From Clostridia bacterium (GTDB lineage Bacteria; Bacillota; Clostridia; Oscillospirales; Acutalibacteraceae), in assembly GCA_017466365.1 (NCBI GenBank), contig JAFTUG010000012.1, forward strand, positions 124,001 through 188,000: DNA of 64,000 nt, given 5' to 3'. A program made the translations under genes and the position numbers. The notes under the pieces are model-generated. The model had not been told where the DNA came from, did no database searches, and saw nothing but the letters and a program-made list of their open reading frames with translations. Numbering within the stretch: position 1 is the stretch's first letter; each line of letters begins with the position of its first letter. This document shows positions 2,868 through 49,085 of the stretch, in pieces.

Positions 2868-4223
2868 ATGAGCGAAAAAAGAAGCAGTTTTACCGGAAAA
2901 ATCGGTTTTGTTCTTGCTGCTGCAGGTTCTGCGGTAGGCTTGGGCAATATCTGGCGTTTCCCTTATCTCGCAGCTAAATACGGCGGAGGAATTTTCCTTC
3001 TCGTATATCTTATTCTTGCCGTAACATTCGGCTTTGCGCTTATGTGCGCTGAAATTGCACTCGGCAGAAAAACAGGAAAAAGCGCAATTGAAGCTTTTTC
3101 TTCACTTAACAAAAAGTATTCATTTGTCGGTGTTCTTGCATCGGTTATTCCTGCAATGATTCTTCCTTATTATTCCGTAATCGGCGGCTGGGTTACAAAG
3201 TATCTCACCGTTTTCACGATGGGAGGAGTTCACGAAGCGGCAGCGGACGGATATTTTGAATCATTTATAGCAAAGCCCTTTGAGCCTATCGGCTGGTTCC
3301 TTCTTTTTATCGGTCTTACGGCTCTTGTTGTACTTTTCGGTGTCGAAAAGGGCGTTGAAAAGGTAAGCAAAATAATGATGCCGGTTCTTGTTGTTCTTAC
3401 TGTTTTTATTGCAGGCTATTCAGTGTTTATGCCTGGTGCAATGGAAGGTGTCAAGTATTATCTTACTCCTGATTTCAGCAAGTTTTCGGCAACTACCGTT
3501 CTTTCTGCAATGGGTCAGCTTTTCTATTCGATGTCACTTGCAATGGGTATTATGATTACCTACGGCTCATATATGAAGAAGGATGTAAACCTTGAAAAGT
3601 CGGTAAGACAGATTGAAATTTTCGATACGGGTATTGCATTCCTTGCAGGACTTATGATTATTCCCGCCGTTTTCGCTTTCTCGGGCGGTGACGAAACAGC
3701 TCTCGGCAAGGGTCCCGGACTTATGTTTATTACTCTTCCCAAGGTTTTTGAAAGCATGAAGGGCGGCACATTTATCGGTGCTCTTTTCTTCCTTCTTGTT
3801 CTTTTTGCAGCTCTTACCTCATCGATTTCTCTTATGGAAACCGTTGTTTCAATCGTAAGAGATAAACTTGGTTGGAGCAGGAAGGTAACCTGCATTGCAG
3901 TTTTTGTTTTCAGCATTGTTCTCGGTCTGCCTTCATCACTTGGCTTTGGTGTGTGGAGTGGAATTTCTCTTAACGGAATGTCCATTCTTGATATGTTTGA
4001 CTTTGCAAGCAACAGCATTCTCATGCCTATTGTAGCATTGCTTACCTGCATTTTTGTAGGTTATGTAATCAAGCCCAAATGCCTTATCGAAGAAATTGAG
4101 CTTACGGGTGAATTTAAGAGCAAAACTCTCTTTACAATCGTAATCAAATACGTTGCTCCCGTGTGCATTATTCTTATTCTTATTTCTTCGGTTCTCGATA
4201 CACTCGGCATTATGAAAATTTAA
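2868..4223 (+). CDS. Sodium:neurotransmitter symporter (NSS) family transporter
   Basis: Na+-coupled importer, probably for an amino acid or related amine, in the cytoplasmic membrane. The 451-residue protein opens with GFVLAAAGSAVGLGNIWRFP (residues about 10-29), the TM1 signature of the LeuT/NSS fold whose unwound GLGN segment binds substrate and Na+. About 11 hydrophobic helices follow, the usual number for bacterial members. The next gene, a secreted phosphoesterase, starts 15 bases downstream, so the two are probably co-transcribed. The functional link between them is not obvious. Confidence 0.9.
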   Translation: MSEKRSSFTGKIGFVLAAAGSAVGLGNIWRFPYLAAKYGGGIFLLVYLILAVTFGFALMCAEIALGRKTGKSAIEAFSSLNKKYSFVGVLASVIPAMILPYYSVIGGWVTKYLTVFTMGGVHEAAADGYFESFIAKPFEPIGWFLLFIGLTALVVLFGVEKGVEKVSKIMMPVLVVLTVFIAGYSVFMPGAMEGVKYYLTPDFSKFSATTVLSAMGQLFYSMSLAMGIMITYGSYMKKDVNLEKSVRQIEIFDTGIAFLAGLMIIPAVFAFSGGDETALGKGPGLMFITLPKVFESMKGGTFIGALFFLLVLFAALTSSISLMETVVSIVRDKLGWSRKVTCIAVFVFSIVLGLPSSLGFGVWSGISLNGMSILDMFDFASNSILMPIVALLTCIFVGYVIKPKCLIEEIELTGEFKSKTLFTIVIKYVAPVCIILILISSVLDTLGIMKI

Positions 4224-43998: not shown

Positions 43999-46125
43999 TT
44001 AGTACCAAAGGAAACCGAGAAGGAAAATTCGGATTAACCATTGCCACCATGCATAAGAAACCGTGATTTCGCATGAATCTGAAATATCTGTGCCTTCAAT
44101 TGTTGCAGTGATTGTTGTTGTACCCGAACCTACTGCGGTAATGTTGCCGTTTTCGTCAACGGTTGCAACCTCAGGGTTGGAGGATTCCCAAAGAATTGAC
44201 TCATCTGAATCCTCTGACAATGTTGCGGATAATTTAAAAGAAGTCTTATAGGTGATATTTGCTTGATTCTGACTTAAATTTAAAAATTCAACGGAAGATG
44301 TGATGATTTCATAATCGACACCATAAGTGATTGCATATTCTAATCCGGCGGAGTCGGCAAAACAATACATTTTAAAGCCTATAATTTTGTTCGCACCTTC
44401 TGCAATACCGCCTCTAGTGAATGAGGTGTTGGTAAATCCAAATGCAAACTCTCCGATATTTGTTACGCTTTTAGGAATGGTTATTTTTTTCATGCTGTCA
44501 CAAGAATCGAAAGCATAATTTCCAATGCTTAACAAATTGGTTGGCAGTTTTACATCGGTAATATTATAACAATCACTGAAAGCACCGCTTTTTATATTGG
44601 TAACGCTGTTTGGAATAATAACATTTTCTAAATTACAGCATCCTGAAAATGCGTTAACGCCTATTGCTGTTACTCCGTTGGGAATGGGGTATTTTGTATT
44701 GCTGTTCTCGCAAGGGAATTTTAGTATCTCGCTTTTATTTTTATTAAATAAGACACCGTATTCATCGTTTGAGAAATAATTGTTTTCATCTGATACCGTT
44801 ATCGTTTTTATTGTTTTACTTTGCCAAAGACTACTGTTTTCATTATTGACTGATTTTCCGATTGTAATATGCTCACAGTTTCCTAATGTGTTATATACGG
44901 TAATAACGCTGTCGGGAATATAATATTCTGTTAGACTGCATCCATAAGGAAATTGAATAAGCTCGGTTTTTTCTTTGTTAAATAATACGCCGTATTCATC
45001 GTTTGAATAAAATTTGTTGTCGGGAGAAACAGTGAATTCATTTATATTTGTGCATTCTGAAAAAGCGTAGGTTCCGATTCCTTCAACAGAAGATGGAATC
45101 GCAATTGAAAGCAAGCTTTCACATCCAGAAAAAGCATTTTCATCTATTGACTTTACCGAATTGCCGATGATTGCTTCTTTTAGGTTGCAGCAATCATAAA
45201 ATGCATGTCGACTGATTTTATTTACACTGTTGCCGATTATAACTTTGGTCAATTCATCACAGCATCTGAATGCTTCTGTGCCGATATCAACAACACTGTC
45301 AGATATAATTAAAAAAACAAGGTTTTGGTTTTCATAGAACGCTTTATCTGAAACTGATAAAACTGTTTCGGGGATTTCGTATTCTGTTTCTTTGTTTTGT
45401 TTGGGGCAGAAAAGCAGTTTTGTTTTTTCTCTGTTAAATAATATTCCGCAGGAATCGCTTGAAAAGTGCTCGTTTTCGTTCGATACTGTTATTACTTCAA
45501 GATTATTTGTTTTTCTAAAGTAATCTGTGTCAAGGTTTTTTACCGATTTTCCGATTGTAATATGAGTAAGTTTGTCACAGTCATCGAAAGCGGTATCTGC
45601 GATGGTTACAACTGTATCGGGAATAGCATATTTGTTATTGCTTTTTCCTGAAGGATAATGAATAAGTTCTGTTTTATCTTTATTGAAAAGCACACCTTGT
45701 TCATCGTTTGAAAAACAAGGATTTTTAGAGTCAACAATTATTTTTTCAAGACTTGATGCACCCGAAAAAACGCCATCACCGATGCTTTTAACGGTTTCAG
45801 GTATGGTTATGCTTGTAAGCTCTGTACAGTTTCTAAATGCGCTGTGCATAATGGAAGTTACGGGATACCCTTCTATTTCGTTGGGTATTGTAATATCTCC
45901 GGTTACCGATGAGCGTGCAGTAATAGCAGCTTCTTCATCTATTATTTTGTATCTAAATCCATTATAGGTTAAATTTCCGATAGGTATGGTTGTTAATCGT
46001 TTGCGTGTTGTAGAAACGCTTTGTGCACCCGGTGTAGAGAATGCCGAAACACTCGATATTCCTAATCCGAGCACCAATAACAAAATGGTGATTAGAACAA
46101 TGTTTTCTTTAAAATTTTTCTTCAT
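43999..46125 (-). CDS. Secreted BspA-like LRR protein with Big_2 domain
   Basis: 708 residues. A signal peptide or anchor covers about 1-28. Then LRR_5 repeats (AF..C..L..I.IP..V..I) are interleaved with four copies of a longer unit containing FSNDEYGVLFNK-type sequence followed by a K(T/S)E(L/I)(I/L).(F/Y)P strand. A Big_2 domain follows at about 605-685 (NPEVATVDENGNITAVGSG). The chain ends YAWWQWLIRIFLLGFLWY, an aromatic hydrophobic tail. The ATG at 46125 with GGAGG directly upstream is chosen over 46203. Its expression is likely controlled by the leader RNA and terminator at 46145-46288. A surface role is inferred from the family. Confidence 0.88.
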   Translation of the reverse strand: MKKNFKENIVLITILLLVLGLGISSVSAFSTPGAQSVSTTRKRLTTIPIGNLTYNGFRYKIIDEEAAITARSSVTGDITIPNEIEGYPVTSIMHSAFRNCTELTSITIPETVKSIGDGVFSGASSLEKIIVDSKNPCFSNDEQGVLFNKDKTELIHYPSGKSNNKYAIPDTVVTIADTAFDDCDKLTHITIGKSVKNLDTDYFRKTNNLEVITVSNENEHFSSDSCGILFNREKTKLLFCPKQNKETEYEIPETVLSVSDKAFYENQNLVFLIISDSVVDIGTEAFRCCDELTKVIIGNSVNKISRHAFYDCCNLKEAIIGNSVKSIDENAFSGCESLLSIAIPSSVEGIGTYAFSECTNINEFTVSPDNKFYSNDEYGVLFNKEKTELIQFPYGCSLTEYYIPDSVITVYNTLGNCEHITIGKSVNNENSSLWQSKTIKTITVSDENNYFSNDEYGVLFNKNKSEILKFPCENSNTKYPIPNGVTAIGVNAFSGCCNLENVIIPNSVTNIKSGAFSDCYNITDVKLPTNLLSIGNYAFDSCDSMKKITIPKSVTNIGEFAFGFTNTSFTRGGIAEGANKIIGFKMYCFADSAGLEYAITYGVDYEIITSSVEFLNLSQNQANITYKTSFKLSATLSEDSDESILWESSNPEVATVDENGNITAVGSGTTTITATIEGTDISDSCEITVSYAWWQWLIRIFLLGFLWY

Positions 46126-46144
46126 TAATAAATCCTCCATAACT

Positions 46145-46288
46145 AAAAAGTGCGCAGCCGAAGCCACGCACCGAAAAACGCAGCCTCGTTCTTGTTGCAA
46201 CACAATTCAAACCGACATAGGAATGACAAACTAAGCATACGTTTTTACCAAACGCATACCTATGCCGTAATTTTAAAAATTGTGTTGC
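46145..46288 (-). ncRNA. Structured leader RNA ending in a terminator (candidate riboswitch or attenuator)
   Basis: Read on the minus strand from the predicted start, GCAACACAATT pairs perfectly with AATTGTGTTGC (11 bp). Inside it CGGCATAGG pairs with CCTATGTCG, and ATGCGT with ACGTAT. Then comes a terminator: GTGCGTGGC, TTCG, GCTGCGCAC, TTTTT (46145-46171), immediately before the GGAGG of the LRR gene. CGAGGCT just upstream can pair with GGCTTCG of the terminator, a possible antiterminator. I do not recognise a known riboswitch class. A terminated sRNA is the alternative. Confidence 0.6.
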
Positions 46289-46294
46289 GCAAAT

Positions 46295-46323
46295 ATTATA
46301 TCACAGAGAAATTCCATAATCAA
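46295..46323 (-). promoter_or_regulatory. Promoter of the leader RNA and third LRR gene
   Basis: On the minus strand TTGATT and TATAAT are 17 bases apart. The predicted start at about 46288 coincides with the first base of the outer stem of the leader RNA. Confidence 0.75.
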
Positions 46324-46340
46324 GCAGAAATAAATTTTCT

Positions 46341-46514
46341 GTTGCTTGTACAACCACCTCATCCGTCGCTATGCGACACCTTCTCCTCAAGGAGAAGGCT
46401 GATCGGCAAGCAAAATTACAGATGAATATTTGGTTTAAAAGAAGCTTTTTGTTATGGCTTCCCCTTGAGGGGAAGCTCCGTCATAGACGGTGATGAGGTG
46501 GTTGCGTAAGCAAC
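46341..46514. repeat. MITE-like element with terminal inverted repeats
   Basis: The ends GTTGCTTGTACAACC+ACCTCATC and, on the other strand, GTTGCTTACGCAACC+ACCTCATC match at 20 of 23 positions. Each half carries a further hairpin (CCTTCTCCT/AGGAGAAGG on the left, CTTCCCC/GGGGAAG on the right). It has no ORF and no clear target duplication. A half-copy lies at 26680-26720. The rest of the 466-base gap between genes holds the leader RNA and its promoter. Confidence 0.7.
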
Positions 46515-46591
46515 AATTAAAATCTCCTGTAGATTTTTTGGAAAACTTATGCTATTATATATTAGTTAAATTAATTTTCAGGAGAATTTGT

Positions 46592-48448
46592 ATGTATCCG
46601 AAAGAACTTGAAAAATTTTTGCTTAAGGTTCAGAAGCCCGGCAGATATACGGGCGGTGAGCTTAACAGCATTGTGAAAGACAAATCAAAAATCGATATCC
46701 GCTATGCATTCTGTTTTCCCGATACCTATGAAATCGGTATGTCGCATCTCGGCATGAAAATTCTTTACTCTCTTGTAAATGCAAGGGAGGATGCTTGGTG
46801 CGAAAGAGTTTTTGCTCCGTGGGTTGATATGGAAGAGGTAATGCGTGAAAACAATATTCCTCTTTATGCACTTGAAAGCGGAGATGCAATAAAGAATTTC
46901 GATATTCTCGGTTTTACCATGCAGTATGAATTGAGTTACACCAATGTTCTTAATATGCTCGATCTTGCAGGCTTGCCCGTAAGATCAAAGGACAGAACCG
47001 CTCTCACTCCTATTGTAATTGCAGGCGGTACATGTGTATGCAATTCAGAACCCATGGCTGAATTCTTTGATATCACTCTTCCCGGTGACGGCGAAGAGGT
47101 TACAAATGAGCTTATCGATTTGCTTAAAGAATATAAGGCAAAGGGCGCAACAAAGCAGGAATTCCTTGTTGCCGCTGCACAGATTAAGGGCGTTTATGTT
47201 CCTTCGCTTTACGAGGTTGAATATAATGATGATAAAACCGTTAAATCCGTAACTCCCACAAACGGCGCACCCGAAAAGGTGGTTAAAAGAAACGTTGCGA
47301 ATCTTGATGAAATGTTTTCACCCACGGAATTCGTTGTCCCGTTTCTTGAAGTTGTTCACGACAGAACAACGGTTGAAATTTTCAGAGGCTGCATAAGAGG
47401 CTGCCGTTTCTGTCAGGCAGGATTCCTGAACAGACCTTTAAGAAGCAAATCCCCCGAGGTTGTTGAAGCGCAGTGCAAAGCTATCTGCGACAGCACGGGT
47501 TATGATGAAATTTCGCTTTGCTCATTAAGCACGAGCGACTACAGGGGTCTTGAAACTCTTATAAAAAACATGCTTCCGTGGACAATCGATGAAAAAATCA
47601 ATATTGCTTTGCCTTCTTTGCGTGCGGATAATTTCCCGAAGGAGCTTATGGAAAAGCTCAATGCAGTCAGAAGAAGCGGACTTACTTTTGCACCCGAAGC
47701 AGGTACACAGCGTTTGCGTGACGTTATCAACAAGAATATAACCGAAGAAGAGGTTTTGCATACTGCTGCACAGGCGTTTTCGGGCGGTTGGACTGCCGTG
47801 AAGCTCTATTTTATGATAGGCTTGCCTACCGAAACGGAGGAGGATATCCGCGGCATTTCGAACCTTGCCCAAGCGGTTGTTGACGAATTCTATAAGAATC
47901 CCGATAAACCCAAGGGCAAGAGTGTAAGCGTAAGCATAAGCCTCGCTTCGCTTGTTCCCAAGCCCTTCACCCCCTTCCAATGGGAGCCGCAGGATAAACC
48001 CGATACCCTTATCGAAAAGCAGGATTTCCTTGTTTCCTGCGTAACAACAAGAAAGGTCAATGTTTCAAGGCATGTTCCCTGGACAAGCTTCCTTGAGGGC
48101 GTTTTTGCAAGAGGTGACAGACGCCTTGCCGATGTTATTGAAACAGCATGGCGCAAGGGCTGCAAGCTTGACGGCTGGTCGGAGCATCTTAAAAAAGAAG
48201 CCTGGGAAGAAAGCTTTGAAGAAAACGGAATTGATCCGTTCTTTTATACTGCAAGACGCCGTGATTATGATGAAATTCTCCCCTGGGAGCATATGGATTA
48301 CGGTGTTACAAAAAAATTCCTCATCAGTGAAAATAAAAAAGCCCATGAAGGCGTAACAACTGCTTGCTGCCGTGAAAAATGTGCAGGCTGCGGCGCAAAT
48401 AAACTCAACGGAGGTGCATGCGATGAAATCGGTAAGACTGTGGTTTAA
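46592..48448 (+). CDS. B12-binding-like radical SAM protein (TIGR03960 family)
   Basis: 618-residue iron-sulfur protein of unknown substrate. The N-terminal part (to about 230) resembles a cobalamin-binding-like domain; the radical SAM motif FRGCIRGCRFC (CxxxCxxC) lies near 265-275; the C-terminus has a Cys-rich end CCREKCAGCGANKLNGGAC. The next gene belongs to TIGR03936, its constant partner in Clostridia, and overlaps by 26 bases. In relatives the pair often precedes rng and rplU, hinting at RNA or ribosome modification. AGGAG fixes the start at 46592, discarding a longer reading from 46490 inside the repeat. Confidence 0.9.
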   Translation: MYPKELEKFLLKVQKPGRYTGGELNSIVKDKSKIDIRYAFCFPDTYEIGMSHLGMKILYSLVNAREDAWCERVFAPWVDMEEVMRENNIPLYALESGDAIKNFDILGFTMQYELSYTNVLNMLDLAGLPVRSKDRTALTPIVIAGGTCVCNSEPMAEFFDITLPGDGEEVTNELIDLLKEYKAKGATKQEFLVAAAQIKGVYVPSLYEVEYNDDKTVKSVTPTNGAPEKVVKRNVANLDEMFSPTEFVVPFLEVVHDRTTVEIFRGCIRGCRFCQAGFLNRPLRSKSPEVVEAQCKAICDSTGYDEISLCSLSTSDYRGLETLIKNMLPWTIDEKINIALPSLRADNFPKELMEKLNAVRRSGLTFAPEAGTQRLRDVINKNITEEEVLHTAAQAFSGGWTAVKLYFMIGLPTETEEDIRGISNLAQAVVDEFYKNPDKPKGKSVSVSISLASLVPKPFTPFQWEPQDKPDTLIEKQDFLVSCVTTRKVNVSRHVPWTSFLEGVFARGDRRLADVIETAWRKGCKLDGWSEHLKKEAWEESFEENGIDPFFYTARRRDYDEILPWEHMDYGVTKKFLISENKKAHEGVTTACCREKCAGCGANKLNGGACDEIGKTVV

Positions 48449-49085
48449 AAAAGACGGACTTGCCGTCTATATCTCTCACCTCGATATGAACCGCTGCATG
48501 ACAAGAGCGGTGCGCCGTGCGAATATTCCGCTTTGGTATACAGAAGGCTTCAATCCTCATCCGTATATGACATTTCTTATGCCTCTTCCTCTCGGTCAGT
48601 CAGGTATGCGTGAACCGCTTGATATAAGAATCGAGGAGGAACTTTCGTTCAAAGAAATAAAGAACAGACTCAATTCTGTTATGCCAGAAGGAATAGAAAT
48701 TGTAGATGTTGCAAAACCGATTTGCAAACCCAATGAAATTGCTGCAGGTGAATATGAAATCGATGTTGAATTTTCATCCGAAGGTGAAGCGGAGGGCTTT
48801 GCGGCAGGTGCCGCATCGGTAATTGAAAGCGGAGTTCTCAATGCTGAAAAACGAAGCAAGAGGGGAATAAAAACCGTCAATCTTTGCGAGCTTATCCGTT
48901 CGTTTGAGATTTGCTCCGACGGAAATTTCGTTCGTGTAAAAACCGTTCTTGCTGCAGGTAACTCCGTTAATCTTAATGCAGAGCTGCTTATGAGCGCGCT
49001 ATGCAATGAATTTTCCGCAGAACCCGAAAAGACGGAGATAGTCAGAACAAAGCTTTTAAGGGAAGATTTAAGCATATTTGAATAA
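48423..49085 (+). CDS. Radical SAM-associated protein (TIGR03936/DUF2344)
   Basis: 220-residue partner of the preceding radical SAM protein. The conserved start RLWFKKDGLAVYISHLDMNR and FNPHPYMTFLMPLPLG are characteristic. No catalytic motif is known; it may bind the substrate RNA or protein. The ATG at 48423 with GGAGG just upstream lies inside the end of the radical SAM gene, so the two are coupled; an earlier start at 48372 has no binding site. Confidence 0.9.
   Translation: MKSVRLWFKKDGLAVYISHLDMNRCMTRAVRRANIPLWYTEGFNPHPYMTFLMPLPLGQSGMREPLDIRIEEELSFKEIKNRLNSVMPEGIEIVDVAKPICKPNEIAAGEYEIDVEFSSEGEAEGFAAGAASVIESGVLNAEKRSKRGIKTVNLCELIRSFEICSDGNFVRVKTVLAAGNSVNLNAELLMSALCNEFSAEPEKTEIVRTKLLREDLSIFE

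Follow-up and report, generated by a model that had tools for sequence, protein, structure and literature searches.

The window analysed here, a 64,000-nucleotide stretch of a Clostridia bacterium contig, holds on its minus strand a gene for a protein of 708 amino acids, counted from the ATG at 46125, which combines BspA-type LRR_5 repeats with a Big_2 Ig-like domain and bears out the BspA-like gene proposed in an earlier note made from the letters of this DNA alone; the open reading frame list starts the frame of this gene at GTG 46203. Ahead of the gene lies a compact leader with a promoter and a terminator of its own. The features, in order along the minus strand, are these:

46295..46323, minus strand: promoter, TTGATT, 17 nt, extended -10 (TG, A, TATAAT), from the sequence and a pattern scan
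46145..46289, minus strand: leader RNA, matched by covariance model R1 (103.3 bits, E = 4.5e-20)
46278..46288, minus strand: 5' strand of the outer stem P1, from folds; helix 1 of the family
46259..46267, minus strand: 5' strand of P2, from the fold; the P2/P3 arm is highly variable among copies
46236..46258, minus strand: P3 hairpin, with GGTAAAAA, from the fold and the alignment of relatives
46233..46241, minus strand: S1, the putative anti-antiterminator strand (CGTATGCTT), from family covariation, its pairing in the window by eye
46213..46221, minus strand: 3' strand of P2, from the fold and the tandem-copy comparison
46197..46207, minus strand: 3' strand of P1, from folds; helix 1 of the family
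46178..46188, minus strand: S2, 5' strand of the antiterminator, from folds and family covariation
46159..46169, minus strand: S3, 3' strand of the antiterminator, overlapping the 5' side and loop of the terminator, from folds and family covariation
46145..46172, minus strand: intrinsic terminator (S3:S4), 9 to 10 bp, TTCG loop, TTTTT, from the sequence, a pattern scan and the fold
46134..46138, minus strand: ribosome-binding site GGAGG, from the sequence
43999..46125, minus strand: the gene for the 708-amino-acid protein

The architecture that the earlier note had read from the letters is present, with minor corrections. The TTGATT-17-TATAAT promoter lies at 46323-46295, with a TG ahead of the -10 box in addition, and the perfect 11-bp outer stem is formed by 46288-46278 with 46207-46197 (12 bp in the fold prediction, with an extra U-G pair). 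The inner stems had been given as 9 and 6 bp; the 9-bp stem stands, and in place of the 6-bp stem the fold gives 9 bp, with P3 pairing 46258-46250 to 46244-46236, P2 also of 9 bp and three to four weak pairs separating P1 from P2. The terminator at 46172-46145 is canonical as described (a stem of 9 to 10 bp, a TTCG loop and five T), and the distance from the T-run to the start of the GGAGG is 6 nt instead of the stated 10 bases. The exclusive antiterminator between CGAGGCT and GGCTTCG is present too, and its pairing can be lengthened to 11 bp (46188-46178 with 46169-46159); as isolated hairpins, the antiterminator and terminator of the window have predicted energies of -16.0 and -14.8 kcal/mol. 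By eye, S1 of the window can pair with 46186-46179 in S2 over 8 bp with a bulged U46237.

The leader fold is more stable than all 200 of 200 dinucleotide shuffles (z = -4.6). A pattern scan of positions 44000 to 48500 found 13 promoter-like sites against 10.5 expected and 6 terminator-like sites against 4.7 expected, neither in excess of chance, so single matches of this kind prove nothing; what carries weight is that relatives conserve the whole ensemble. An inverted repeat at 46353-46502, with ACCACCTCATC at each end, separates the leader promoter from an opposite-strand open reading frame listed from 46490 and looks like a REP- or MITE-type palindrome.

The leader is one member of a multi-copy family, which, along with the S1:S2 pairing and the tandem cassettes described below, is an addition to what the earlier note contained. 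A second copy elsewhere in the same genome, 76% identical across most of the query, also precedes a protein with LRR_5 and Big_2. A DNA search recovered matches in 21 of 45 genomes of the same genus, one of them (L023) a 24-base promoter-like stretch only. We built covariance model R1 from an alignment (A1) of 25 relatives, one of which is the window copy itself (L004); it matched the window leader again in the same-genus search (E = 3.2e-19) and, at E ≤ 0.001, recovered the leader in at least 26 of the 45 genomes. At the same threshold, matches occurred in at least 149 of 398 sampled genomes of the family (at least 60 of 135 genera), at least 117 of 345 of the order (at least 66 of 163 genera) and at least 100 of 391 of the class (at least 57 of 223 genera); these are lower bounds because runs on more than 40 genomes scored only 7 to 9 candidates per genome (64 in the genus run) under stricter filters, and they are not additive, the samples at the five ranks from genus to phylum overlapping. 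The E-values from R1 are rough, and many of the searched genomes are incomplete assemblies. In the phylum sample, which served as a specificity control and includes some genomes from the window's own class, R1 matched 1 of 299 genomes, the window's own.

Twelve genomes picked because they had matched carry 2 to 30 matches each at E ≤ 0.001. The 30 in the richest of them (G1011) are mutually nonoverlapping, and 17 have E < 1e-10; among the matches in other genomes, a few are opposite-strand shadows. A scan for the exact core pattern returned 33 named stretches, of which 31 are titled Clostridia, Clostridiales, Oscillospiraceae, or Ruminococcaceae and the others Eubacterium (one) and Bacillota (one), with ruminant guts named in many of the titles. 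A phage origin was also considered: two unannotated faecal "Bacteriophage sp." records (MT837627.1 and MT835845.1) hold part of the leader, covering 52% and 32% of the query, and an exact pattern scan of viral contigs gave 0 matches. In two loci (L031 and L033) the P2 arm is far longer, with a near-identical insert carrying an extra hairpin common to both.

The earlier note had staked its reading beforehand on covariation among relatives, and the stems do covary. Across the 95 distinct rows of alignment A2, the model structure is paired in 90.2% of cells, a count that leans towards the model since A2 was fitted to R1, and two-sided changes fill 588 cells against 221 in shuffles and 84 to 150 in slid controls, kinship among the rows inflating the shuffle tests and two shadow rows being retained among the 95. 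P1 (helix 1) is paired in 96.6% of cells, with two-sided changes in 8 of its 12 pairs, and the terminator (helix 6) in 100%; alignment is poor in the middle of P2, where 67.5% and 43.6% of cells are paired. Letters conserved in at least 90% of the A2 rows lie mostly within paired strands, and few are unpaired. Alignments A2, A3, and A4 together hold 222 rows, nine of which (seven opposite-strand shadows and two weak same-strand matches, L139:530 and L218:1267) were removed before the count of 197 distinct copies used below, where identical copies were collapsed and near-identical ones kept; the 197 were thinned to 169 for the partner permutation, folding, and NTG and frame analyses.

Four strands, S1 to S4, can be joined in series. 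The pairings S1:S2 and S2:S3 lie outside model R1 and were spotted by eye and counted afterwards. S1 sits directly 3' of P3 and in its common type pairs with S2 over 10 bp with a bulged U; on A2 this pairing holds in 92.1% of cells, with two-sided changes in 8 of 10 pairs, and none of 500 shuffles equalled the observed value on any of five measures. The antiterminator S2:S3 is paired in 94.1% of cells with two-sided changes in 5 of 11 pairs, but its covariation is modest and weaker than that of S1:S2: two of the five measures were matched by 11 and 16 of 500 shuffles, and the pairing slid by -1 gives 19 two-sided cells against the 15 observed. By eye, S2:S3 appears weakened in one locus (L222). 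S1 has a second possible partner in the 5' side of P3 (87.8% of cells paired on A2). For this pairing two of the five measures do not rise above the shuffle level (reached by 208 and 310 of 500), and R1 itself already contains one of the seven pairs.

Members tend to match their own partner strands. S2:S3 reaches 12.27 bp with own partners against 11.82 bp when partners are permuted (highest of 60 permutations, 12.02; n = 169), and S1:S2 reaches 9.13 bp against 8.42 bp (highest, 8.72; n = 166). Among the 153 members in which S1:S2 could be parsed (parsing failed for three of 156), S1 carries CTTC in 5 of the 7 whose S2 carries GAAG and in 13 of the other 146. When the transcript is cut before S4, the antiterminator appears in the minimum-energy fold of 167 of 169 members, which, with the covariation in relatives, supports the riboswitch- or attenuator-like design that the earlier note had proposed. 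Folded whole, the RNA adopts the antiterminator in its minimum-energy structure in 110 of 169 members and the terminator in 55, and the isolated hairpins average -12.9 and -14.4 kcal/mol, respectively, over the family. As expected of an attenuation leader, the mutually exclusive antiterminator and terminator lie between the promoter and the start codon. The conservation of sequence in S1, S2, and S3, which P2 lacks, would be accounted for by each of the three strands having two partners.

The cassette is rigid. A TGnTAnnnT motif stands immediately upstream in 192 of 197 distinct copies, 156 of these 192 have a -35 spacing of 17, and the end of the -10 box is 6 nt from P1 in 183 of 197. Beyond the U-tract, a Shine-Dalgarno (SD)-like motif follows within 40 nt in 140 of 197 copies and at 5 to 8 nt in 103, and an open reading frame of at least 45 amino acids with an SD begins within 260 nt in 175 and within 40 nt in 123; no such frame occurs within 260 nt in the remaining 22 of 197. 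We also considered a leader peptide, which was not supported: an SD-spaced leader frame of at least 6 amino acids occurs in just 5 of 169 members. An NTG falls within S2 in 148 of 169 members and is an ATG in 106 of them; all three frames relative to the U-tract are represented among the 148 (87, 42, and 19), so that none is preserved.

Complete cassettes also occur in series, two to four per row, in 16 hand-picked loci that gave 20 neighbouring pairs (a separate set of 52 rows, used for this comparison alone). The median identity within these pairs is 81% over the 60 nt upstream (range, 51 to 100%), 90% over the last 62 nt and 65% in the inner arm; for random members the corresponding values are 61% in the inner arm and 78% over the last 62 nt. 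In L222, L126, L178, and other tandem loci the P2/P3 arms are about as divergent as those of random members, with flanks that are sometimes near-identical. Copies 1 and 2 of L126, for example, have flanks 95 to 100% identical and arms 64% identical; in other pairs, such as those of L125, the flanks have diverged as well. A locus in a different genome of the same genus (L085) combines the arm of copy 1 with flanks resembling those of copy 3, and this mixture suggests, at the level of sequence, recombination between copies. The notion of P2/P3 as a fast-mutating tag was not supported, L085 having preserved a copy-1 arm within copy-3-like flanks. Additional terminators separate the upstream tandem units from the gene. 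Near some cassettes lie tRNA genes, possibly integration sites (L203:2124-2373 and L229:3282-3531, which are one place, and L235:321-394), and in L234 a Gut-1 RNA (RF01706, 72.7 bits, at 3192-3263 on the minus strand) lies about 245 nt upstream of the leader on the same strand.

The genes behind the leader are diverse. We scanned 168 downstream proteins, trimmed to 340 amino acids, against Pfam (three of 171 were dropped as overlapping another entry), and BspA-type LRR (LRR_5) was the commonest target, in 37 of 168 (27 of 85 in set A5 and 10 of 83 in set A6). Further families among those listed (25 of 33 for the set of 85 proteins and 25 of 53 for the set of 83) include DUF6273, CHAP, XRE-type HTH, double zinc ribbon, ricin-type lectin, EcoRI methylase, and many singles; in these lists no metabolic pathway is prominent, and the targets have none in common from which a ligand could be named. 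Some single matches, such as a tRNA synthetase 180 nt downstream, are probably unrelated neighbours. Genes for an EcoRI-type adenine methyltransferase stand behind the leader in two of the 85 (A5) and one of the 83 (A6), L081 being one of the three. For set A6, PADLOC returned chiefly models of XRE-type regulators and one methyltransferase, and PHROGs placed 10 of the 83 proteins in each of two uncharacterised families, with regulators in at most 6 of 83, a pair of Sie-like proteins, and phage families represented once each. A crude and generous heuristic called a signal peptide or lipoprotein in 72 of 122 downstream proteins and 16 of 50 open reading frames of the window, a moderate enrichment. 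A function common to the targets was considered and rejected.

Comparison with catalogued RNAs agrees with the earlier note in recognising no known class. At gathering score, Rfam 15 gave 0 matches in the window and 9 in 20 leader loci, none of them covering a leader; at E up to 10, five and six subthreshold matches appeared, all far under their cutoffs, and the T-box model (RF00230) was absent from all Rfam matches to the window and leader loci. Transcriptional riboswitches, of which the c-di-GMP riboswitches with transcriptional expression platforms are an example, likewise have a structured 5' leader, an exclusive antiterminator and terminator, pseudoknot-like long-range pairing, and many cell-surface targets; the present leaders differ in having no Rfam match at gathering score, in a unit that includes a fixed promoter and in their tandem occurrence. 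Of what marks a riboswitch sensor domain, structure and covariation are present, yet few unpaired letters are conserved. In trp-type attenuators four strands pair 1:2, 2:3, and 3:4, much as S1:S2, S2:S3, and S3:S4 exclude one another in series here, but the leader family has no conserved leader peptide. The T-box leaders of Firmicutes share the principle of antiterminator against terminator, but no Rfam match lies over a leader and the targets are not amino acid genes as a group.

ToxI resembles the leader in being a repeated folded RNA before a gene, but the leader family repeats whole cassettes of about 150 nt, each with its own promoter, and ToxN is not among the Pfam families listed (25 of 33 and 25 of 53) for the 168 downstream proteins. 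ToxI, a type III toxin-antitoxin RNA, is mentioned in the accessible part of PMC8040213. Gut-1 and Clostridiales-1 are, according to the accessible part of PMC2864571, structured RNAs of gut bacteria, as the leader is, the latter from Clostridiales; neither matches a leader, and Gut-1 merely adjoins one. We found no description of the leader RNA in the accessible parts of the literature searched, which included PMC8040213, PMC8632094, PMC2864571, and PMC11109978, although it may figure without a name in the motif lists of PMC8040213.

We consider it probable, from sequence comparison, that the window leader belongs to an apparently undescribed Clostridia class of transcription-attenuation leaders, riboswitch-like, whose switch is likely driven by a small molecule or ion. 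Each forms a self-contained cassette in which the RNA comes with its own promoter and terminator and usually with a ribosome-binding site. Sequence comparison establishes the conserved helices, the exclusive pairings, the rigid cassette, and the wide spread; we infer the start site, the switching in the cell, the direction of the response, and the signal. RNA polymerase would start at or beside P1, and S3, once transcribed, would pair with S2 as the antiterminator and allow read-through into the gene. If S1, held in the P2/P3 arm, captured S2 instead, S3 would be free for S4, the terminator would form, and an RNA of about 145 nt would be released; pairing of S1 with the 5' side of P3 would leave S2 free. 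Because S1 has these competing partners, its choice between them is likely the sensing step, governed by the fold of P1, P2, and P3 together with a signal that is most likely a small molecule or ion. Against this reading stand the modest covariation of the antiterminator, the two shuffle-level measures for S1 with the 5' side of P3, the scarcity of conserved unpaired letters from which a ligand pocket could be made, targets with no common pathway, the 22 of 197 copies lacking an SD-bearing frame within 260 nt, the terminators between upstream tandem units and the gene, the seemingly weakened S2:S3 of L222, and the S1:S2 of only 8 bp in the window.

In place of a metabolite or ion, the same attenuator could respond to a protein acting in trans, to an antisense RNA, or to the speed of the polymerase. 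The few conserved unpaired letters, the diverse targets, and the closeness in energy of the competing hairpins all fit such a trigger, which we regard as possible and less probable than a small molecule or ion. That the cassette is a small-RNA gene, whose terminated product of about 150 nt is stable and works in trans while the downstream gene is a passenger, is unlikely. It would account for the promoter and terminator of its own, a transcript that would start at a stem, complete tandem cassettes with no intervening gene, up to 30 matches per genome, and the 22 of 197 copies with no SD-bearing frame within 260 nt, but it leaves the conserved antiterminator with no evident use, and the SD-like motif 5 to 8 nt past the U-tract (103 of 197 copies) and the SD-bearing frames starting within 40 nt (123 of 197) speak for a leader joined to its gene.

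Unrelated neighbours, multiple and tandem copies, and tRNA genes adjoining some loci would also suit a mobile repeat, a MITE-like palindrome that merely delivers a promoter and terminator. Two-sided compensatory changes in the stems and the long-range pairing, the narrow distance of the SD-like motif, and inner arms only about 61% identical between members, unlike recent insertions, make this improbable. Ribosome-mediated attenuation through a short frame opening at the NTG in S2 has in its favour the presence of that NTG in 148 of 169 members (ATG in 106) and the likeness of GGAGC-U-AUG to a compressed start site; it is nevertheless very improbable, since the NTG lies about 2 nt from GGAG, members differ in its frame relative to the U-tract (87, 42, and 19 of 148), ordinarily SD-spaced leader frames of at least 6 amino acids occur in only 5 of 169 members, and the window copy has no ATG inside S2.

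Under the preferred reading, an attenuation leader driven by a small molecule or ion, the family has several implications. A class present in at least 57 of 223 sampled genera of Clostridia, with up to 30 matches per genome and no matching Rfam 15 model, is a sizeable gap in the catalogue. The leader RNA is short, its predicted start and stop are sharp, and it can be transcribed in vitro, which makes the signal directly testable. More speculatively, and we think it rather unlikely in this full form, promoter and switch as one portable cassette, with up to 30 matches in a genome and in tandem arrays, would subject accessory and surface genes of Clostridia that are otherwise unrelated to a shared signal, and released leaders could cross-act in trans because the S1 strand of any copy is able to pair with the S2 strands of many other copies. 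If true, such trans action would give the gene-less tandem units a function and the divergent P2/P3 arms a reason, each copy folding on itself. The leader class marks surface and accessory genes of mostly uncultured Clostridia, and it may be a widespread gene switch.
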